Origin: Fibrobacteria bacterium
GTDB taxonomy: Bacteria > Fibrobacterota > Fibrobacteria > UBA11236
Assembly (NCBI GenBank): GCA_017881725.1
Contig: JADGQO010000022.1
Location: 1-58,968, forward strand
Direction of reading: 5' to 3'
Length of the DNA: 58,968 nucleotides
The notes beneath the pieces are model-generated. The model saw only the letters and a program-made list of their open reading frames with translations. It did not search any database and was not told the DNA's origin. A program made the translations under genes and the position numbers. Every line of letters begins with the position of its first letter. Within the stretch, counting starts at the first letter, position 1. Shown here in pieces: positions 1 to 11,973 of the stretch.

Positions 1-579
1 AATGACGACAATCTGGTAATTGTTCCGGATCGCCGGAGACGGCGTATCCGTTTGTCGGGACTCGGCCAAGTTGTACGACGCAACCCTGAAGTTGCGTGAA
101 GCGGACGGTATCGCCGGGGAGGAATCCCCAAAAGCGGATTTCGACCATCGCCTCACCACCTTGACCTCTGACATCAGGAGAATGGTTTCCAACAACTCGG
201 CGACGCCACTCTCATGTCCGGGTACATCGGGTTTTGGAGGCATGCTGACCACGGCCAAGGCGCCGGCCTCCATGGCCTTGAAAGACCTCAGTGTTTCCGA
301 AGCCTCCAGCCTTGCGCTCAGAACTACGATGGGCACAGGTTGACTTTCCATGATGGCTCGGGTCGCTTGGATTCCGTCCATTACCGGCATTTCCAGGTTC
401 ATGAGAATGAGTCCGGGTCGGGGAATGGTCTTGAGGACGTCGATCGCCCGTTGCCCGTTGCGCGCTGTCGCAAGGAGCTTGAAACCGGGATGGGACGACA
501 ATAATCCCACCAGAAATTCCCTGTCGGTTATCGAGGCTTCCACCAAGAGGACGCCCACCGGTTCCCGGACGGTGCTCAT
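1..579 (-). CDS. cheB: CheB-type chemotaxis methylesterase (WspF-like), 3' end beyond window, degenerate receiver
   Basis: The visible 193 residues form an N-terminal receiver domain and a linker, and the window edge cuts the gene where a CheB catalytic domain would begin (last residues YQIVVI). CheB proteins demethylate or deamidate receptor glutamates and are normally activated by phosphorylation from CheA. The receiver fold is recognisable (PVMDG after the phosphorylation loop), but the key residues are changed. The N-terminal acidic pair is EA (residues 14-15), the phospho-acceptor is Asn61 (AAC, bases 397-399) within LILMNLEMP, and the conserved Lys position reads VSMP. The start ATG overlaps the cheA stop by four bases (ATGA), so it is the last visible gene of the operon. 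Family assignment is good from position and fold. Loss of phospho-regulation is inference. Confidence 0.82.
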   Translation of the reverse strand, partial: MSTVREPVGVLLVEASITDREFLVGLLSSHPGFKLLATARNGQRAIDVLKTIPRPGLILMNLEMPVMDGIQATRAIMESQPVPIVVLSARLEASETLRSFKAMEAGALAVVSMPPKPDVPGHESGVAELLETILLMSEVKVVRRWSKSAFGDSSPAIPSASRNFRVASYNLAESRQTDTPSPAIRNNYQIVVI

Positions 580-2783
580 AGGCTTGCTCCCAGGAATTCC
601 AACAACCGGTCGGCATCGAACTCGCCTTTGGCCATATAGGCGTTGGCTCCGAATGCCATTCCGCGCGCCCGCTCCCCTTCTGAGTCCAGGGACGTCACGA
701 GAACGACGGGCAGGGTGCACCATTTTTCATCTGCTCGAATTCGGGCGAGGAGCTCGAACCCGCCCATGCGCGGCATCTCCACATCGGAAACGATGATGTC
801 GAACGTCTCCTTATCCAAAGCTGCCAAGGCCGCCACCCCGTCCACGGCGATCGAGACCGAATATCCGGCGGTTTCGAGCAGGCTCTTGATTAAGGTGCGC
901 GAGGTGATGCTGTCCTCGACAACCAGGACCTTGCGCGGGCCCGATGCCGATTCCTCTTCTGGCACAGCCGTGGCCCTTTCGCCCGGCGTCCACGCCCTGA
1001 AGCCTCCCAAATTTAAAACCAGGGCGGTTTCTCCCGTGATGAGCGTAACGGCTCCAACAATTTTGTCCAACTTGCCAAAGGGGGGGCCTAAGGGCTTCAC
1101 CACGATTTCCTGTTCGCCGTGGATGGATTCCACGAAGACGGCCCGGGCGGATCCCTCCACTCCCAGGATGAGGACCACCCCCGCTTTTTTCCACGCTTTC
1201 CCCGATTTCCCGGAAGCGGGCATGTCCAGGATTTGGGCCAGGGGCGCGACCTCCAGCCATTCCCCGTCCAACTGGACGGCTGGCCACTTCGTGGTTTTGC
1301 CGGCGTTGGGATAGTATCTCCTGACATGGCGCACCTGCGAAGTCGGCACAACGTATTTCCTGTCGCCGATTCCAACCACCAATCCTCTCGATGTGGAAAG
1401 TTGGGAAGGCAGGATGAGGATGAAGCATGTGCCTCGGCCAGGAACGCTTTCTACCGTGACCGATCCCCCCCGCTTCTCGGTGCGTTCGCGGACGATGGCC
1501 AATCCCAGGCCGCGTCCCGACAGGGCTGTTACTTCCCCCCGGGTGGTGAGGCCGCTGCGGAATGCCAGTTGCAGGACCTGTGAGTCATCCAGTCCATTCG
1601 CCTCCTCGGCGGAGAGGACCCCGTTCCTAACGGCCGATTCCTTGAGCTGGACGGGATCGAAGCCGCGTCCGTCATCCTTGACCTCAATTCTCACCTTGCC
1701 TTCGGGCGCCGTGGAGACGGATAGCTGCAAGATTCCTTCGGCAGGTTTCCCCAGGGCCACCCGCGCTTCCGGGCCCTCGATTCCATGATCAATGGCGTTG
1801 CGGACCAGATGCAGCAGGATCTCCCGTAACTCCTCGGCTACGGGCTTCTCCATTTCCCTGTCGGCTCCGGAAATAGTCACACGCACCCGTTTCCCGGTTT
1901 GCACCGCGAGGTCGCGGGCCAGCTTGGGAAAGTCCTCCAGCAGGTCACCCGCCGGGATCATGAATACGTCCCGCAAGCCCGTGAGCAGAAGGGCTGTCAC
2001 TTGAGCCAAATCGTCGCGATGGCCTAAGCCCAGCTTCCGCGCTAAGCCGCTCATAACTTCCAAGGAGCCGGCAAGTTTCAGCAGTTCCTGTCCACCCGCG
2101 CGCGCGCGGGAAGCCCTGCTTCGGAATTCCTTTTCAAGTTTCGCGGACAATTCCGCGGCGGTCCGCTGCATGTCCTCCAAATGGAGCAGAAGGCGGTTGG
2201 AAAGGATCTTCGCCATCGTCAATTGATCCACGTGTTCGTGCAGCGCCTCTAGTTTTTTCATGGGTAAGCGCACCATGTTTTCCGGCCCGGTCCGCAGGAA
2301 GGCCGCCTGGATTTCTCGAGGGGGGAGAATGAGCCTTGGCGTAGCGGTCATGGACGCCATCCGTTCCTTCGATGAGTCGCCGCCGGGCTTATTCTGTTCG
2401 ATATCCCGCAACGACTGGATGAGCGCCGGGTTCTGGCCCACGGGCTCCAAATCGCGGCGCCGGGCGGCGAGCATATCCTCCAATAGGGCGCGCGCCGCGT
2501 TCAGGATGTCGAATAGTTCGGAAGTCAGGACGGTTTGGCCCGATTTCAGGGAATGCAGGGAACCTTCCACGGCTTGGCAAAGAGATTCCATCTCGCTGTA
2601 ATGGACCGCCCTCGCAGCGCCTTTCAAGCTATGGGCGGCGCGGTAAAGGGATTCGGCAAGACCTTCCGAGGCGCCTTCACCGCTCCGCTCCCAGGCAATG
2701 AGGCCGGAACCCAGGCGATGCAAATGCTCCGAGGCTTCCTCATGGAAGGTGCTTTCCAGACGTTTCCGGAATTCTTCGTTCAT
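576..2783 (-). CDS. cheA: Hybrid CheA histidine kinase with C-terminal receiver (WspE-like)
   Basis: 735 residues. Domains in order: HPt (1-110, phospho-accepting His51 in AAHSLKGAA), a linker without a clear CheY/CheB-binding P2 domain, dimerisation helices (about 170-280), HATPase_c (N box LVRNAIDHGIEG near 327, G1 DDGRGFD near 370, G2 GRGLGLAIV near 423), a CheW-like coupling domain (about 460-605) and a complete receiver (617-735). The receiver keeps its acidic pair (Glu623-Asp624), Asp667 in VSDVEMP and the Lys in YMAKGE, so it should accept phosphate. CheA-receiver fusions of this kind are typical of Wsp and other non-flagellar chemosensory systems. It lies 27 bp downstream of the receptor gene and overlaps cheB by four bases. 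No flagellar or cheY gene is visible nearby. Confidence 0.93.
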   Translation of the reverse strand: MNEEFRKRLESTFHEEASEHLHRLGSGLIAWERSGEGASEGLAESLYRAAHSLKGAARAVHYSEMESLCQAVEGSLHSLKSGQTVLTSELFDILNAARALLEDMLAARRRDLEPVGQNPALIQSLRDIEQNKPGGDSSKERMASMTATPRLILPPREIQAAFLRTGPENMVRLPMKKLEALHEHVDQLTMAKILSNRLLLHLEDMQRTAAELSAKLEKEFRSRASRARAGGQELLKLAGSLEVMSGLARKLGLGHRDDLAQVTALLLTGLRDVFMIPAGDLLEDFPKLARDLAVQTGKRVRVTISGADREMEKPVAEELREILLHLVRNAIDHGIEGPEARVALGKPAEGILQLSVSTAPEGKVRIEVKDDGRGFDPVQLKESAVRNGVLSAEEANGLDDSQVLQLAFRSGLTTRGEVTALSGRGLGLAIVRERTEKRGGSVTVESVPGRGTCFILILPSQLSTSRGLVVGIGDRKYVVPTSQVRHVRRYYPNAGKTTKWPAVQLDGEWLEVAPLAQILDMPASGKSGKAWKKAGVVLILGVEGSARAVFVESIHGEQEIVVKPLGPPFGKLDKIVGAVTLITGETALVLNLGGFRAWTPGERATAVPEEESASGPRKVLVVEDSITSRTLIKSLLETAGYSVSIAVDGVAALAALDKETFDIIVSDVEMPRMGGFELLARIRADEKWCTLPVVLVTSLDSEGERARGMAFGANAYMAKGEFDADRLLEFLGASL

Positions 2784-2810: not shown

Positions 2811-4568
2811 CTAGACTTTGTAACGTTGCGCCAAGGCTTTCAGTCTTTGGCCCAAGTCGTTGATGCTTTTTGCCGCGTTTCCGGCCTGGCTCACGCTTTC
2901 CACGTTCTGGTTACCCGCTAGGCGGATGCTCTCCATCGCCAATGTCACCTGATCCATTCCGACCACTTGCTGATGGCTGGCTGCGGCGATTTGCAAGGAG
3001 GCTTGAGCTGCTTCCTGAACAATATCTGCGAGCAGTCCTATGGACTGGGCGGCTTCCTGGGACTGCCGCACCCCTCCTTCCACCGACTTGGCCCCCTGTT
3101 CGGCGGCCATTACAGCTTTCGCGATCCCCTTTTGGATGTCGTTGAGAATAGCCCTGACCTGGCGTGTGGCGCTCTTGCTTTGCTCCGCCATAATGCGCAC
3201 CTCCTGGGCGACAACCAGGAAGCCTTTGCCATGTTCCCCGGCCCGGGCGGCTTCGATGGAGGCATTGACAGAAAGAAGGTTCGCTTGTTCGGCGATTTCA
3301 TTGACTGAAACGAGGATTTCTCCGATGGCCTGGTTCTGTTCTCCCAGCTTCACGGTGCTGTCCGCTATGGTCTCCATCTGGCCTCGGATCCGGTCCATGA
3401 CTTGGATGGTGTCTTCCACGGCTTTCTTCCCGACTTGGGAAACCTGGTTGGCCTTTTCAGCGGTGGCGGATACGGCCCTGGCCTTCTGGCTCGCCATCTG
3501 CGCCGTCTGCCGTACCTCTTCCACGGTGGTGGTGGTCTCGCGGATGGCTGTGGCCGTCTGTGAAGCTCCGGCGATCAACTGCGATGTTCCCGCCATGACC
3601 TGGCTGGCGGAAGAGGCCAGTACGTTCACGCCTTCCGAGATTTCCCCTACCATTTTCCGAAGGCTGTCGGCCATACCGGAGAAGGCGATTCCCAATATGT
3701 CCTTGTCCGATTGGGGCCGGAGGGTAACAGTCAGATCGCCCTCAGCGATACTTTCGGCCCCGGTCGCGGTTTTTCGAAGACTGGCCGCCATATGTGAAAA
3801 GGCTTCGGACAACTTGCCGATTTCATCCGACCGCCCAGCGGCCAGCGATGTGATCTCCAGATTGCCCATGGCTATTTTGGCGGCTTCGCGCGTGAGGCTG
3901 CCTAGGGGAACGGCAAGATTGCGGTTGAGCAAAAAGACCAACCAGCCGCTGAAGGCCAGGGCGAAAATCCCGGAAAAGGAAATGATCCAGAAAGAATCGG
4001 AAACCAGGCTTTCGGATTTTTCCACCGACAGGGCCGCGCGCCTTTCCGACTTTGCCACCATACCGTTCGACATCTCGACAATTTTCTGGAATTTCGTAGT
4101 CTGCGCGCCCAGGGAGAGGGCTTTGGCTTCCACAAATTTGCCGGCCAGGCTTAAGGGGATGACCGAGCCGTCCCGCACTGAAACGTACGCATCGAATATG
4201 CTTTTAAGGTTCTTTAAATCGGTTTGGTATTCCGGGTCCTCCAGATTAAAGCTCATCAGGTGGTCGAACAGGGAGTCGTTCTTCCGGGTAGAAGCTTTTA
4301 CTTCCTCCTGGTCCGCTGCCTGTGCGGTCTTTTCCCCTTCGACTAGGAGCAGGAAAAGCCCGGAAACCCGTCCGGCATTCAGGTTCGCCTGCAGCTGGAT
4401 CAAATCCTGGCTTATCCGGAAGTCCTTCTGGAATAGATCCACCTGTGCGTCGCGAATCTTGCGCAGCGCGGAATAGGAAAGAAACATGACCATGATCATC
4501 AAGAGAACAAGGGATCCAAAGGCCCAGGCCAGCTTGGATCGGGTGTTGAGGTTACTGAAATAGGACAT
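2811..4568 (-). CDS. Methyl-accepting chemotaxis protein with periplasmic four-helix-type sensor
   Basis: 585 residues. A first membrane helix (about 13-32) and a second (about 193-214) bracket a mainly helical periplasmic segment of about 160 residues that resembles a 4HB_MCP sensor. A HAMP linker follows (about 215-267), then the cytoplasmic methyl-accepting coiled coil. The highly conserved tip is present ([21 protein letters not shown] followed by [18 protein letters not shown]). There is no C-terminal CheR-tethering pentapeptide, since the protein ends [10 protein letters not shown]. It sits between cheW and cheA in the same operon and is presumably the receptor for this signalling complex, comparable to WspA. 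The ligand or stimulus cannot be told from sequence. Confidence 0.95.
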
Positions 4569-4590: not shown

Positions 4591-5121
4591 TTAGTTGCTG
4601 CCCGTTCCATGGATGACCGTTTCCAGGAGCTGTTTGACGTCAAGTATCAGTTCCCCGCCATTCGCCATTCCGGAAACCCATTTCAGGGAAGATCCGCGCA
4701 GGCCGCCTATTTCATGGTAGGCATAAGTTTTGAAGCCTATCACTTCGGAGACTTGGAGGCCCACCTCATGTCCGGACAGTTTGAGGAGGAGGATCGGCGA
4801 CTGCGCCGAGGTGTCCGACGGTTGATCCCGGGAGAACCCCAACAAGGTTGGTAGACTGAGGATCGCAACCATCTTCCCCCGATGATTGAAACCTCCTAAA
4901 ACATGCGCGGGGGATCCTGGAACAGGGATGATATCGTCCGCCAGGGTAGCTTCGCAGGCATATTCGGCCTCCACTGCAAGCATTTTCGCGCCGAAGGTGA
5001 AAACCAGGTATTCCTTGCCGTCATTGGCCGCGGCCGAAACAGGCTCTCGCGCCAGGAGAATCGCTCGTTCGCGTAGAATCCTTTCCAAGGCATCTTGATC
5101 GGTCGGAGGTTGATTGATCAC
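4591..5121 (-). CDS. cheW: CheW-like coupling protein (second of two in the operon)
   Basis: 176 residues, a single CheW/SH3-like domain (about 30-170) with the usual hydrophobic pattern (LVFTFGAKMLAVEAEYACEA, then HVLGGFNHRGKMVAILSL). It would couple the receptor to CheA. The start is a GTG at 5121 that overlaps the stop of the upstream cheR gene (GTGA), which implies translational coupling. The ATG of the following receptor gene lies 22 bp downstream. The operon encodes two CheW proteins flanking CheR, the same pattern as WspB and WspD around WspC. Confidence 0.92.
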   Translation of the reverse strand: MINQPPTDQDALERILRERAILLAREPVSAAANDGKEYLVFTFGAKMLAVEAEYACEATLADDIIPVPGSPAHVLGGFNHRGKMVAILSLPTLLGFSRDQPSDTSAQSPILLLKLSGHEVGLQVSEVIGFKTYAYHEIGGLRGSSLKWVSGMANGGELILDVKQLLETVIHGTGSN

Positions 5122-6551
5122 TGGGCGTCGTCTTTATTCAGGATATTCAAGAGCACCAGCTTTAGTTTTCCCGAGGTCATTTCCCCATCTGAGCCAGGCA
5201 ATGCGTAGTTGGACGGAAGCGCTTGGACCAATCGCAAGGCATTGCGGAAATGGGAGAGGGCGCTCTGCGGACCCTCCAGCCGTTGTTGCAGGCTGCCCAA
5301 CGCGAAATGGGCCAAAATGAAATCCTGGTCTTTTTTAAGCAACTCGGTCAGCCTGGATATGGCTTCCCCGTCATCGCCTTTTTCACGGAAGATGGTCGCA
5401 ACCAGGAAGGACAACTCGGAGGATGCAATGCCTTCAGCGGCTTTCAGTCCCCATTGGAGGGCGTCTTCCAGGCGCCCTTGATCAGCGTAAGCCTTGGTGA
5501 GGATGGCCATGGCCGGATAATCCCACGGATCTTTTTCCAACCGTGCCTGGGCGAGTATTTCCTCGGACTTTTCTCGCTCCATGCCCGTGGACTTGCCCGC
5601 AATCGAATGGACGGCCGTCGCATCGGAAACGGCGGTCGGCCGCAGGGAACGCCCAGCTGCGGCGGATGGAAAATTTCCGGATTCGGGAGGTTTCGGGTCG
5701 CCCGTCTTGGCCAACAGAAAGGGCACGCCATATGGGCTTGCTATCAATCCGGAGACTCGCGCCAATGTGGTTTCCACCGGTGCCAGGGCCAAAAGCCCGT
5801 CCTCGGATAGTGCCTTTCCCAGCCGCGCCAGAATGCTTTCCGCTTTTCCTACGGTCATGTACATCAAAACATTTCGGCAAAGCACCAGATCCATGGCCTG
5901 GGTGTTGGTAAGGGGCGAGGGGTATTCCTCCAAGGTCAGATTCAGTTGGGCGAAATGGACCATGCGGCGGATTTCGTTCTTTACCAGGTGGCGTTTATCC
6001 TTGGCGGATTCGAAGTATAGGGCCTTGAGACCCGGCGCAAGCGCTCTCATGGACCAATCCCCGTATTTTCCTTCCCGGGCTTTTTCCAGGAAGGTGGTAT
6101 TCAAGTCCGTGCCGAGGATGGTGACGGTCCATTGGTTTAAATCGGGAAGCAATTTGGTCAGGAGCATGGCGATTGAATACGGCTCTTCGCCCGTGCAGCA
6201 GGCAGCGCTCCAGATCCGTAGGAAGGGCATACCCGCAGCCCTTCTCCTGGCAATAAGAACCGGGAGCACGGATTCCTCCAATAGTCGAAAGAAGGCTTCA
6301 TCCCTGAAGAAATAGGTTTCGCCGATGGTCAGGTTCCGGGCAAGGGCGGTCATTTCCTTCGATAGGGGTGCGCTGAGGATCGCCGTCCTGACGAATTCTT
6401 CCGCGGTCGGGTACCCGCTTTCCCGGGTAGCCGCCAGGATACCCCTTTCCAAATCCTCCCAGCGTTCCTGGGCGAAATAGAGGCCCAGTTTTTTTTCGAT
6501 GGAATCGGCCAGCTGGGCAACCAAACCCATCGTTAAAATCTTAAGCGGCAT
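5118..6551 (-). CDS. cheR: CheR-type methyltransferase with C-terminal TPRs (WspC-like)
   Basis: 477 residues from the chosen ATG at 6551. That start is preceded by AAAAAGG and overlaps the end of cheW by 11 bp. A longer open frame to 6668 lies entirely within cheW and is unlikely to be used. The CheR core covers about 1-270: a helical N-domain, LTIGETYFFRD (74-84), the SAM-binding IWSAACCTGEEPYSIAM (113-129), LGTDLN (146-151) and LCRNVLMYM (224-232). The C-terminal part (about 340-440) has TPR-like helices, as in WspC. CheR methylates receptor glutamates using S-adenosylmethionine, opposing CheB. The receptor lacks a tethering pentapeptide, so the TPRs may provide docking; that is inference. 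Confidence 0.93.
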   Translation of the reverse strand: MPLKILTMGLVAQLADSIEKKLGLYFAQERWEDLERGILAATRESGYPTAEEFVRTAILSAPLSKEMTALARNLTIGETYFFRDEAFFRLLEESVLPVLIARRRAAGMPFLRIWSAACCTGEEPYSIAMLLTKLLPDLNQWTVTILGTDLNTTFLEKAREGKYGDWSMRALAPGLKALYFESAKDKRHLVKNEIRRMVHFAQLNLTLEEYPSPLTNTQAMDLVLCRNVLMYMTVGKAESILARLGKALSEDGLLALAPVETTLARVSGLIASPYGVPFLLAKTGDPKPPESGNFPSAAAGRSLRPTAVSDATAVHSIAGKSTGMEREKSEEILAQARLEKDPWDYPAMAILTKAYADQGRLEDALQWGLKAAEGIASSELSFLVATIFREKGDDGEAISRLTELLKKDQDFILAHFALGSLQQRLEGPQSALSHFRNALRLVQALPSNYALPGSDGEMTSGKLKLVLLNILNKDDAQ

Positions 6552-7041
6552 CACGACCTTTTTCCGGCGCGGCGCTTCCGGCAGCGCTGTGGAGCAAGGC
6601 TTTATCGATGACGGCTTCTTCTTCCAGGGATAGGAACCGATCCAGATCCTGTATCCATAGGAGACCATCCTCCCTTTTCAACATACCGGAAACATGTGAG
6701 ATTCCCGGTGACAATTGATCATGAGCAGTGAAATCGACGGAAGCGCCATCCACCAATTCGGAAACCGAATCCACTACCAGAATCATCCGTCGCAGCGCGG
6801 ATTTGGTGATGATAAAGATATGGCCGGGATGAATCCGGGTGGGAACGGATTCCAAGCGCAGACCCATGTCGAAAACGGGCAGCAGCTTTCCTGCGACATT
6901 CGCGATTCCAAGCAGAACGTTCGGCCCTTGGGGAGAGGGAGCGATCAGGGCGGCTCTTACGACCCTTTCAACCCTGTCCGCGGCTAAAGCCAGGCTTAGT
7001 CTTCCGACTTTGAAAGTCAGGAATCGAATGGTTTCAACCAT
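6541..7041 (-). CDS. cheW: CheW-like coupling protein, first gene of the chemosensory operon
   Basis: 166 residues from the ATG at 7041, which has AGGTG nine bases upstream. An in-frame TTG at 7089 would add 16 residues but has no visible ribosome-binding site. The protein is a single CheW domain (IRFLTFKVGRLSLALAADRVERV, then NVLLGIANVAGKLLPVFDM). It is the most upstream gene of the block, so the operon promoter should lie in the roughly 450 bp beyond it. The last bases overlap the start of cheR. Confidence 0.92.
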   Translation of the reverse strand: MVETIRFLTFKVGRLSLALAADRVERVVRAALIAPSPQGPNVLLGIANVAGKLLPVFDMGLRLESVPTRIHPGHIFIITKSALRRMILVVDSVSELVDGASVDFTAHDQLSPGISHVSGMLKREDGLLWIQDLDRFLSLEEEAVIDKALLHSAAGSAAPEKGRDAA

Positions 7042-7497
7042 GGTAAGCGGCACCTGGAGAAAGCCCCACGGGAAAAATTGTATCGTCAAAAAACCGGGTT
7101 TGAAAAGCAGCTTCTTTAATAGACGGCTTCCAAAAATGAGGTGTATTCAATGAGAAACGATCCAATTCATGAGGTAAATGGAAAAAAGTGGGAGGCAATT
7201 GGTGCGCGGCCTTACTCGAAAGTTTACAAAATATTAATCCTGCCAATCCCTCATAAGTAGATATTCTGAATAACCGTGCTGCCACCGAATCCAAGCAGTG
7301 CAGGACTGCAATCGTGCCATAAAAAAAACATTAGTAATAGGTCTTCAATAATTTTATTTTCCAAAACCTGGGGTCTGTCTGGTCCTCAATGTGAACTGTT
7401 CCCCTGACACCGGACACGACGAAAGTCCCGGAGGCCTTGGCGGAAGCGGTATGCTCGAAACAATTGGTATTCGACGCCGCTCAGCATGTTCGCCAAA
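7042..7497. other. Intergenic region upstream of the chemosensory operon
   Basis: No convincing gene. The part next to cheW is AT-rich and presumably contains the operon promoter, but no clear -10/-35 pair stands out. The segment around 7391-7497 is more GC-rich and abuts the broken transposase. The stretch starting at 7391 (gtgaactgttcccctgacac) looks like an insertion-sequence terminus, which would explain why the transposase is cut there. That reading is tentative. Confidence 0.4.
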
Positions 7498-8181
7498 CTA
7501 TCCTTCGCTTGTCGCCGCGTTTCCCTTGGCTCGGGTAATCAAATGCCCGCCCATGGGAAACATCGAGCGCGCGAAATGGCCGGAAGCGTAGTAGGCATCG
7601 GCCACCAGATATAACGGTACGCGTCCAAGCACATCACCTAGAAGCTTCGGGAGTTTTGCTATCTGCGATTTTTTGTCTTTGGGTGTAAGACGAAGCCCCT
7701 CCAGAATGCGCGTGACAAGTGGAACGGCAAACACACCGGCAAGCGACCCTATTACAATCGCGATGTTCTGACAGGAATGTCCGGTGATATAGGTCGGCTT
7801 GGTGTTTGAGGAGGATTGCTGATGCAGTTTTTTCACAGTAGGCATTTGACGCCCGGACTTGGGAGCCTTGATTCCGTCCACGATTAATAAAATACGCCCG
7901 TTAACCTTGTGAGTCATTTTGTGGGAGACGAGTATTTGAGCCCAGATGCGAGTCATCACGTCCAGCTTGACGGCCCCGGAGGCAAAAAAGCCCAAAAGGC
8001 AATCGTAGATCTTGGCCTTTCCCCCCAAGCTGCGAACCAGCGAGGTGACACCCAGGAGATCCGTTCGTAGAACCGTGGCCAAGGTTACGCAACAGAACCA
8101 AAGGAAGGTTCTTTGTCGTGAGAAAGCTTTGCGAAACAGGGGAAGGATGCGAAGGAGACGTGTCCAAAGAGGGTTAGGCAT
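7498..8181 (-). pseudogene. Truncated DDE transposase (insertion sequence remnant)
   Basis: 227 residues of a DDE-type transposase. It begins with a plausible native N-terminus (MPNPLWTRLLRILPLFRKAF) and contains the first catalytic-Asp region (RILLIVDGIKAPKSGRQMP) and a second (VPLYLVADAYYASGHF). It stops shortly after HLITRAKG. Full-length members of such families usually run to roughly 400 residues or more, so the C-terminal third carrying the catalytic Glu is missing. No downstream continuation was found in the other frames. The sequence past the stop looks like unrelated or IS-end DNA. It is therefore very likely inactive. The exact IS family was not determined. Confidence 0.8.
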
Positions 8182-9567: not shown

Positions 9568-11973
9568 GTGAACAACTTAGGCGTAAAAAAAAGCCCTTTC
9601 CTATTGCCCTGCGTGCTGTTGCTGGCCGGATCCCTGGCGGGGTGTCGCTTCGAAGCGAATAAAGCGAGCCGGGCGGAAGCGGCCGATACAGCCATGCCCG
9701 CGGATTCCATCAGGGAAATTCTCCAGGCGAAAAATCTGGCCACGGTTCCGCCTCTCAATGAAAAAGAAGCCTCCATCCTCGGGAAATTCCGCGATCGGCG
9801 CAGCTTGCCTGCGGCTGGCAGCCTCCGCATCGATTATCCCCGCGACAGCAGCGTGTTTCCACCGGAGATGGTGGCGCCCACCTTGGTTTGGCGAAACGAA
9901 GGACTGGTAGCGCAGCGCTGGCTGATTGAGTTTGACTTGGGAGATTCGGCGAAGCTTTCGGTGCTCAAGGCCTCCCAAGGTCCGCCGCCCTTGGTCATCG
10001 ATCGTGAAGTCCCTCTCCGGGCCGGGAGCAACGCAATCTCGCGCCCCAAGTCCATGGAGGTTTGGACCTTGCCCAACTCCATCTGGGCCCAGATCCAGAA
10101 AAAATCGGTGGGGACGTTCGCGCGCGTCACCATTTCGGGATTCGCATCCGGCTCCGGCGGACCCGTCCTCCAATGCAGCTTCGTTTTCACCATCTCCAAG
10201 GATTCCGTGTCGGCGCCCATATTTTACCGCGACGTGCCTTTTATTCCGGTGGTCAACGAAAAGGACGACAATATTTTTCCGTTGCAACAGTTCAACATGA
10301 AGTTCATCAACTGGAGGTTGCGGGACGTCTCCCGTTGGGAAAGCAAGATCGTTCTCCGGGACATGCCGACTTGTTCCAACTGTCACACTTTCTCCCGGGA
10401 TGGAAAATGGATGGGAATGGACATCGACGGCCCGCAGAGCGATAAAGGCGCTTACGGCATCCAAAAGGTTTCCCGGCAAATGGTTTTTGATCGCAAACAT
10501 GTCATGAGTTGGAACTACGATTACAAGGGGAGGACGCCGGGGAAATTCACCTTGGGATTCATGTCCAGCATGGCACCCGACGGCCGCAATGTCATTTCCA
10601 CCGTGAACGAAGAGCTCTACTCGATGGGTTTCAAGGATCCCGCCTTTAGCCAGGTATTCTATCCCACGCGAGGCATCCTGGCTTATTACTCCCAAAGCTC
10701 CAAGAAGGTCCTGGCCTTGCCCGGAGCCGACGATACCACTTACGTGCATTGCTCTCCAACCTGGACGCCCGACGGCAAATACATCGTGTTTTCCCGCGCC
10801 AAGTCCAAGCCTCCCTATACGAAGAATCAGCGGATACCCGCGCAGCCGAATGATTCCGAGGAAACCCAGATCAAATACGACCTTTACCGCATTCCCTTCA
10901 ACGACGGAAAAGGCGGGAAGGCCGAGCCGATTACCGGAGCGTCCTCCAACAGCATGAGCAACAGCTTCGCCAAGGTCACCCCTGACGGCAAATTCATCAT
11001 TTGGGTCCAAGCCAAGAACGGGTTGCTCATGCGGCCCGGCAGCAAGCTGTGGATAGTGCCCATCGACGGGGGCCAACCGAGGCTCATGAGTTGTAACGGC
11101 GACGTGATGAATTCCTGGCACAGCATTTCCCCCAATGGGCGGTGGATGGTCTTTTCGTCCAAGCATTTCTCGGGATACACCCAGCTTTTCCTCACGCATC
11201 TCGACGGCAAGGGCGGCGATAGTCCCATGATCCTCATTCCCAATTCCACCGCCGACAACCGCGCGTCCAATATTCCCGAATTCGCCCCCATCGGTTACGA
11301 TGACATGGTCAACATCGACGTGCCCGCCGTCAGCCATTTCCGTTACAAACTCCAGGCGCAGGAGATGCTTCAGAACGGGAGGTACGAGGAAGCGATCGCC
11401 CTGATGCGCAAGGCCTTGAAAGACGAGAACGTCGACATGCTCATGCGTTCGGATATGATGGTGACGCTGGGCGAGCTCACCCGTGACAACCAGGAAGCCA
11501 TCCGACTACTCAAGGAAACCATCAAGGTCGACTCGACGTACCACCAGATTTATTTCTTCCTGGGCCATTTCTACGAAATGGAGGGGCAAGAACGCCTTGC
11601 CATCACAAGTTACCGCAAGTGCCTCGCGAAAAATCCTCAGAATTACTGGGCCATGCTAAAGTTGGTCCAGATCTACATCGCCCCGGCTGATTCCTCCCTG
11701 CGCAATATCGATTCCGCGCTGTATTACAGCACCAAGGCTTGTGATCTCACCTACTACCAGAAATCCTATCCCATCCAAAATCTCGCCCGAGTGTTTTCCG
11801 AACAAGGGCGATTTGCAGAAGCGGCGAAGATGGACGAGCTGGGTATTTTACGGGCCGGGCAAATCAACGACACCAGCCACATTGCCGGAATCAAGAATGA
11901 GATGCAAGCGTATGCCATGAACCGGAAGTTCACTTCCTTGATCCACAGGCTGCCGCTGCCTTCTGGCAAATAA
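9568..11973 (+). CDS. PD40/TolB-like beta-propeller lipoprotein with one CxxCH haem motif and C-terminal TPRs
   Basis: 801 residues from a GTG start. A lipoprotein signal peptide ends in the lipobox LAGC (Cys26). After an N-terminal beta-rich domain, a single c-type haem-binding motif CSNCH occurs at residues 269-273 (DMPTCSNCHTFSRDGKWMGMD). This runs into PD40/TolB-like propeller blades (SMAPDGRNVIS, PTWTPDGKYIVFSRAK, KVTPDGKFIIWVQ, SISPNGRWMVFSSKHF). From about residue 600 there are TPR helices (QEMLQNGRYEEAIALMRKAL and following). Bacteroidota relatives with a CxxCH followed by PD40 and TPR are often labelled 'cytochrome c biogenesis'; that label is database tradition, not function. Probably anchored in the outer membrane and exposed to the periplasm. 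Role unknown. Confidence 0.85.
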   Translation: MNNLGVKKSPFLLPCVLLLAGSLAGCRFEANKASRAEAADTAMPADSIREILQAKNLATVPPLNEKEASILGKFRDRRSLPAAGSLRIDYPRDSSVFPPEMVAPTLVWRNEGLVAQRWLIEFDLGDSAKLSVLKASQGPPPLVIDREVPLRAGSNAISRPKSMEVWTLPNSIWAQIQKKSVGTFARVTISGFASGSGGPVLQCSFVFTISKDSVSAPIFYRDVPFIPVVNEKDDNIFPLQQFNMKFINWRLRDVSRWESKIVLRDMPTCSNCHTFSRDGKWMGMDIDGPQSDKGAYGIQKVSRQMVFDRKHVMSWNYDYKGRTPGKFTLGFMSSMAPDGRNVISTVNEELYSMGFKDPAFSQVFYPTRGILAYYSQSSKKVLALPGADDTTYVHCSPTWTPDGKYIVFSRAKSKPPYTKNQRIPAQPNDSEETQIKYDLYRIPFNDGKGGKAEPITGASSNSMSNSFAKVTPDGKFIIWVQAKNGLLMRPGSKLWIVPIDGGQPRLMSCNGDVMNSWHSISPNGRWMVFSSKHFSGYTQLFLTHLDGKGGDSPMILIPNSTADNRASNIPEFAPIGYDDMVNIDVPAVSHFRYKLQAQEMLQNGRYEEAIALMRKALKDENVDMLMRSDMMVTLGELTRDNQEAIRLLKETIKVDSTYHQIYFFLGHFYEMEGQERLAITSYRKCLAKNPQNYWAMLKLVQIYIAPADSSLRNIDSALYYSTKACDLTYYQKSYPIQNLARVFSEQGRFAEAAKMDELGILRAGQINDTSHIAGIKNEMQAYAMNRKFTSLIHRLPLPSGK

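Follow-up and report, generated by a model that had tools for sequence, protein, structure and literature searches.

Active site of the CheB receiver

The locus analyzed in this study raises the question of whether a CheB methylesterase encoded directly beside its CheA kinase can still be controlled by that kinase when the phospho-acceptor of its receiver domain appears to be missing. The cheB gene lies at the very beginning of the window (the whole stretch of 58,968 nucleotides of a Fibrobacteria bacterium that was analyzed), where its N-terminal 193 codons, specifying the receiver and the linker, occupy positions 1..579 (-). The ATG start codon (579-577) overlaps the stop codon of cheA in an ATGA junction, and the frame contains no stop codon down to base 1, which is the start of contig C73. 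The encoded fragment terminates with ...NNYQIVVI, the point at which, in the alignment, the methylesterase domain of the homologs begins.

The receiver fold was recognized by Pfam (Response_reg, residues 10-112, 46.8 bits; cut-off 30.2), and the model obtained for residues 1-145 has a predicted (beta-alpha)5 fold with a mean pLDDT of 92.5. The fragment is an N-terminal receiver of the CheB type with the linker of this family, and across these two parts it shares up to 49-50% identity with full-length CheBs encoded at the same gene position.

Alignment with other CheBs assigned the active-site positions as follows: (i) the acidic pair (DD1 and DD2) corresponds to E14 and A15 (GAA GCC; 535..540 (-)), (ii) the phospho-Asp to N61 (AAC; 397..399 (-)), (iii) the conserved Ser/Thr, which is kept, to S88 (316..318 (-), coordinates counted from the start codon) and (iv) the conserved Lys to M113 (ATG; 241..243 (-)). 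The initial annotation of this DNA had placed Asn at the phospho-acceptor (residue 61, bases 397-399) and Met at the Lys position, and both the codons and the alignment agree with it. It had also described the acidic pair as replaced by EA, which is accurate for A15, a real loss of DD2; E14 is ordinary, Glu being common at DD1 among otherwise intact relatives. The true losses are therefore those of DD2, the phospho-Asp and the Lys. With E14-A15, N61 and M113, the window CheB does not have a phosphorylatable Asp accompanied by an acidic pair and a Lys, and it belongs among the pseudo-receivers, in which key phosphotransfer residues, here including the Asp, are absent. As three separate motifs are altered, a single base-call error cannot account for this sequence.

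Organization of the che operon

The visible operon has the gene order cheW-cheR(TPR)-cheW-mcp-cheA(receiver)-cheB, with cheB as the last visible gene, and this run of genes identifies it as a Che3/Wsp-like operon of the CheR-TPR type. The set begins with the second of the two cheW genes (6541..7089 (-); CheW domain in Pfam). The cheR frame that follows (5118..6668 (-)) encodes a CheR domain (Pfam, 154.8 bits) and a TPR-like C-terminal part (several TPR models, TPR_11 scoring above its cut-off); the true start of cheR probably lies inside this frame, below coordinate 6668. Next come the other cheW (4591..5121 (-); CheW domain in Pfam) and mcp (2811..4568 (-)), whose product contains a 4HB sensor, a HAMP domain and an MCP signalling domain (Pfam). 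The receptor terminates with ALAQRYKV and has no pentapeptide of the NWETF type. A scan with the presumed methylation-site consensus was uninformative: the only strict match (residue 84) lies outside the signalling domain, and a relaxed form of the motif matched at residues 84-85 and 529-530.

The cheA gene (576..2783 (-)) encodes a kinase with Hpt, HATPase_c and CheW domains and a C-terminal receiver, as determined by Pfam and a motif check. The Hpt His motif (AHSLK), the N-box and the G-box are all present, judged by patterns that we presume to be diagnostic. The CheA receiver is canonical, with all five residues (E-D, D, T and K) in place, and the earlier description of the partner receiver as intact was correct.

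No WspR-type GGDEF regulator was found among the visible genes of the operon, the contig ending after part of cheB. A receiver-bearing gene is located 3' of cheB in 23 of 25 related loci, the other two (L021 and L178) being terminated at this place by a contig end. Five of these genes were tested with Pfam: four encode a receiver plus HATPase_c, three of them also HisKA, and the fifth (L112) is cut after the receiver and HisKA. The corresponding gene in L025 and L032 is, judged by its length, a short single receiver. Homologous operons of the same order, some of them cut by contig ends, occur in Nitrospira-type bacteria, Riflebacteria, Bacteroidales, Bacillota and the phylum of the window itself; the loci of Chloroflexi match the window operon in fewer genes.

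Two further ORFs of the window were inspected. The one located just upstream of the che operon (7498-8181 (-), 227 aa) looks transposase-like by eye (DGIKAPKSG, VADAYYASG) and gave no Pfam match at 0.001. The other (9568-11973 (+), 801 aa) contains a CSNCH haem-binding-like motif and has a C-terminal part that is TPR-like by eye.

The methylesterase half

The catalytic Ser-His-Asp of the window CheB is not readable, because the contig ends before the methylesterase domain. A DNA search of the same genome with bases 1-250 matched the window only, and the eight methylesterase-domain matches in this genome each cover approximately the whole profile, none of them resembling the missing half. The methylesterase motifs that contain Ser, His and Asp (GxSTGG, QH and GMGxDG, respectively, which we take to be the catalytic motifs) are intact in the three degenerate CheBs of the relatives described below that are present as whole genes (L104/L110, L105/L112 and L119/L176). 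The methylesterase of L112 was also aligned along PDB 1A2O.

CheB receivers of related bacteria

A profile comprising the receiver and the linker (A1) was run on 167 genomes of the phylum to which the window belongs, the best candidates only (up to 24 per genome) being scored. Seven places exceeded 160 bits, and the other 56 listed scored 121 bits or less. The best of these 56, L119, belongs to the same operon type, which gives eight members in the phylum. Some are located on cut contigs: L109 comprises cheB and what follows it, the contig of L112 holds cheB between truncated cheA and kinase genes, and at the L110 locus the first cheW is absent and cheR is incomplete.

The active-site residues of the eight CheBs (in the order DD1, DD2, D, T, K) are EANSM in the window, AKSCK in L105/L112, DKDSK in L104/L110, EGDSR in L119/L176, EDDSR in L101/L107, L102/L108 and L103/L109, and EDDSK in L019/L111. 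The second acid is thus gone from four of the eight (replaced by Ala, Lys, Lys and Gly), and the phospho-Asp from two (replaced by Asn and Ser). That such losses occur in relatives of the same phylum speaks against an error and against a mutation confined to this gene.

All 55 other CheB-like receivers listed in the phylum carry DDDSK. A methylesterase motif is present in the same frame in 51 of them, the exceptions by the pattern used being L123, L206, L219 and L225. The difference in loss of the second acid (4/8 vs 0/55) gives a Fisher value of 0.00012 in a comparison that is post hoc and ignores kinship, with controls selected for their scores with a profile that is itself mostly canonical, among which degenerate receivers are perhaps under-sampled. 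The CheB domains of L014-L018 stand outside this count, and the Ser/Thr place of L002, a CheB of the same genome as the window, is Val in one alignment and Ser in another. The CheA receivers of the compared operons are canonical in 24 of 24 cases, degenerate operons included, as are the receivers of the genes that follow cheB in L110, L112 and L176. Exceptions among the additional receivers of these loci are one of L022, with Gly at the Ser/Thr place, and one of L177, in which the Lys column is missing.

A broader comparison was made with 89 distinct CheB rows, obtained from 194 receiver hits by removing those that scored less than 60 bits or had no methylesterase motif (the window being exempted). 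The phospho-Asp is kept in 87 and the second acid in 85, and every exception comes from the phylum of the window. Both residues are likewise kept in all 47 loci from the phyla of three other centres (a set which includes six loci re-fetched from the genome-contigs scan, and in which four loci have no methylesterase motif). The initial annotation had proposed that orthologs with a normal Asp would point to a one-off mutation or a sequencing error. The outcome is mixed: the Asp is present in all CheB rows examined outside the phylum, but inside it the losses listed above recur.

No closer ortholog with the same residues, above approximately 50% identity, was found in 60 relatives, in the genome-contigs scan or in the 167 genomes of the phylum. 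The scan took the best 80 of 490 confirmed loci (top identity 50%; near-identical genomes may be missing from it), and in each of the 167 genomes the ortholog searches scored no more than the 19 or 24 highest-ranking first-look candidates. Within the genus, the operon type is patchy among the part of the first-look candidates that was scored: genomes G001-G004 gave no CheB match at E 1e-15, G005 gave one distant match (31%), and none of the five gave a CheA match at E 1e-80.

Arg takes the place of the conserved Lys in 12 of the 24 CheBs of this group whose active site is otherwise intact (L101, L102, L103, L023, L028, L024, L147, L149, L153, L154, L155 and L157). As this substitution is already present in half of these CheBs, Met113 weighs little, and less than the other two changes. 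The CheA receivers encoded in the operons with Arg keep their Lys (available for 10 of these 12).

Evolution of the receiver and of the operon

Of the 45 conserved columns outside the active site, 34 are kept by the window receiver and 11 are changed. When intact members were left out one by one, they were found to lose between 0 and 14 columns, and the count of the window is therefore inside the intact range, near its high end; L104, L105 and L119 lose 15, 14 and 18, respectively. By this count, the domain of the window is not simply disintegrating.

The branches of the window, L112 and L176 in the receiver tree are long (2.02, 2.33 and 2.43, respectively; median 0.64). The CheA branch of the window is very long (3.29, compared with a median of 0.62). 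The entire pathway therefore seems to have evolved rapidly in this genome, and fast evolution of the operon as a whole may account for some of the changes in the receiver. In the five-gene tree, L110, L112 and L176 form one clade (100/100), and the window is unplaced on a long branch. A topology uniting the window with the other three degenerate lineages was not rejected (p-AU 0.359); in the receiver tree these lineages and the window group together, weakly supported (83/86) and on long branches. Given this clade and the unrejected union, a small number of events may underlie the recurrence: one loss of the second acid, or several, may have occurred, and the Asp was probably lost twice (once to Asn and once to Ser).

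Proposed function of the pseudo-receiver and alternative explanations

Our preferred interpretation, which we regard as rather probable, is that the window encodes a pseudo-receiver CheB within a Che3/Wsp-like operon, and that its methylesterase has been taken off phosphotransfer from CheA. The loss of phosphorylation competence of this receiver, already proposed in the initial annotation, is well supported by the sequence. For the accompanying idea of a stoichiometric scaffold no support was found; a purely stoichiometric role is disfavoured by the fact that the three degenerate relatives with full-length genes keep their triad motifs. The likeliest consequence of the loss of the receiver site would be a constitutive methylesterase, of either high or low activity.

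According to this model, phosphate from CheA would no longer reach CheB; it would pass only to the receiver fused to CheA and, judging by the relatives, to the product of a receiver-bearing gene located past the contig end, often a receiver-histidine-kinase. The methylesterase would act at a fixed, phosphorylation-independent rate, so that adaptation would be set by the state of the receptor and the CheR:CheB ratio, without kinase feedback on CheB. The receiver itself may have been kept for folding, docking or autoinhibition, and whether the activity of CheB is high or low would depend on the interface between receiver and enzyme. Unphosphorylated CheB is described as a closed form of low activity (PMC8609364). 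In excerpts of PMC5809149, E. coli CheB-D56E is modelled as a low-activity form and the bare catalytic domain CheBc as a high-activity form; both lack phosphorylation feedback, and precise adaptation is still possible with them, with more variation from cell to cell. The chief limit of the preferred interpretation is the methylesterase half, which lies past the contig end; in addition, the Asp is present in L104 and L119, and a receiver devoid of the second acid might formally still be phosphorylated. The wider proposal, which we put forward tentatively, is that this one phylum contains a natural class of phosphorylation-independent CheB, belonging to a Che3/Wsp-like operon, which became uncoupled from its kinase, on perhaps more than one occasion, and with which adaptation runs free of kinase feedback. 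The phosphorylation site would have disappeared by different routes, with the methylesterase and the remaining receivers of the pathway preserved.

Other explanations have to be weighed against this one. The receiver might be locked in an inhibitory conformation, yielding a low-activity CheB that is switched by another signal, such as a partner that binds the receiver or a ligand that occupies what was the acid pocket. The retention of the domain with most of its non-catalytic conserved columns is in keeping with this, as are the modelled low activity of CheB-D56E (PMC5809149) and the Asn-type pseudo-receiver RitR, in which, according to excerpts of PMC4395418, Asn53 forms a hydrogen bond with Glu9, as N61 might with E14. 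However, no partner or ligand site was found when sought, and the first acidic position varies among the degenerate CheBs (E, D, A, E), and we consider such a switch unlikely. Decay of the gene, with relaxed selection on the receiver and the whole CheB becoming a pseudogene, could explain the long branches of the window, L112 and L176 in the receiver tree and of the window CheA, and it would suit the patchy presence of the operon type in the genus; it is made improbable by the 193 open codons, the start codon overlapping the cheA stop, the confident predicted fold and the retention of methylesterase motifs in relatives with a damaged pocket.

Two further explanations are less credible still. 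A reversion of Asn to Asp at the same place is reported for a receiver (PMC4395418, in part), and the receiver of the window could in principle still be phosphorylated, e.g. at another residue or once Asn61 has been deamidated to Asp. We regard this as very improbable, and deamidation was set aside as the main explanation, since neither the second acid nor the Lys remains and a regained Asp would sit in a largely incomplete active site. An assembly or sequencing error might be suspected for a gene at a contig end, in a genome of 235 contigs with 90.21% completeness. It is the least credible of all these explanations, and was ruled out as the main one by the three separate motifs, in a clean frame, and the related losses in three other genomes of the same phylum.

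Pseudo-receivers as such are already known, and what would be new here is their occurrence in CheB. No CheB pseudo-receiver was described among the papers listed in a literature search by titles and the beginnings of abstracts (degenerate, pseudo- and missing receivers), subscription journals being mostly outside this search. Laboratory mutants indicate that the phosphorylation feedback on CheB is dispensable for precise adaptation and narrows cell-to-cell variation (PMC5809149, in part). If our interpretation is true, a natural lineage without the feedback but with the enzyme would provide an evolutionary test of the purpose of this feedback. The manner in which bacterial pseudo-receivers switch has been called a mystery (PMC12632262, in part), and a pseudo-receiver with an assayable enzymatic output could help to explain it.

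Comparison with known systems

The window CheB resembles the CheB of E. coli and Salmonella (PDB 1A2O) and presumably also WspF-type CheB in having an N-terminal CheB receiver, with a linker reaching the start of the methylesterase, and in the position of its gene, which adjoins cheA and has mcp and cheR nearby. Unlike the E. coli and Salmonella protein, it is without the second acid, the phosphorylation site and the Lys, and its catalytic half lies beyond the contig end.

With aspartate-less and other pseudo-receivers, such as RitR and ChxR, as portrayed in parts of PMC4395418 and PMC12632262, it shares the fold of a receiver, the substitution of Asn for the phospho-Asp and other changes in the active site. 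RitR and ChxR are DNA-binding regulators, whereas the output in the window would be a CheB methylesterase. Asn accounts for 16% of the Asp replacements in aspartate-less receivers and is the second most frequent (PMC4395418, in part), and pseudo-receivers constitute several percent of all receivers (PMC12632262, in part). The term "CheB" has no occurrences in the texts of these two articles.

In gene layout, the window operon resembles the Che3 system of Rhodospirillum centenum (CheA3-receiver, CheB3, CheS3), with two cheW genes, cheR, mcp, cheA with a C-terminal receiver and cheB. A receiver-histidine-kinase, comparable to the receiver-kinase CheS3, is present in relatives of the window, whose own contig ends before that place. 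In R. centenum, CheA3 phosphorylates the REC1 domain of CheS3, and loss of cheB3 results in premature cysts (PMC3868531, in part). The window also resembles Wsp and the other CheR-TPR pathways with alternative cellular functions in its CheR-TPR and CheA-receiver, and it differs from Wsp in that the visible part of the operon is without a WspR-type GGDEF regulator. Approximately 40% of the response regulators in CheR-TPR clusters bear a histidine-kinase module, according to excerpts of PMC3447774.
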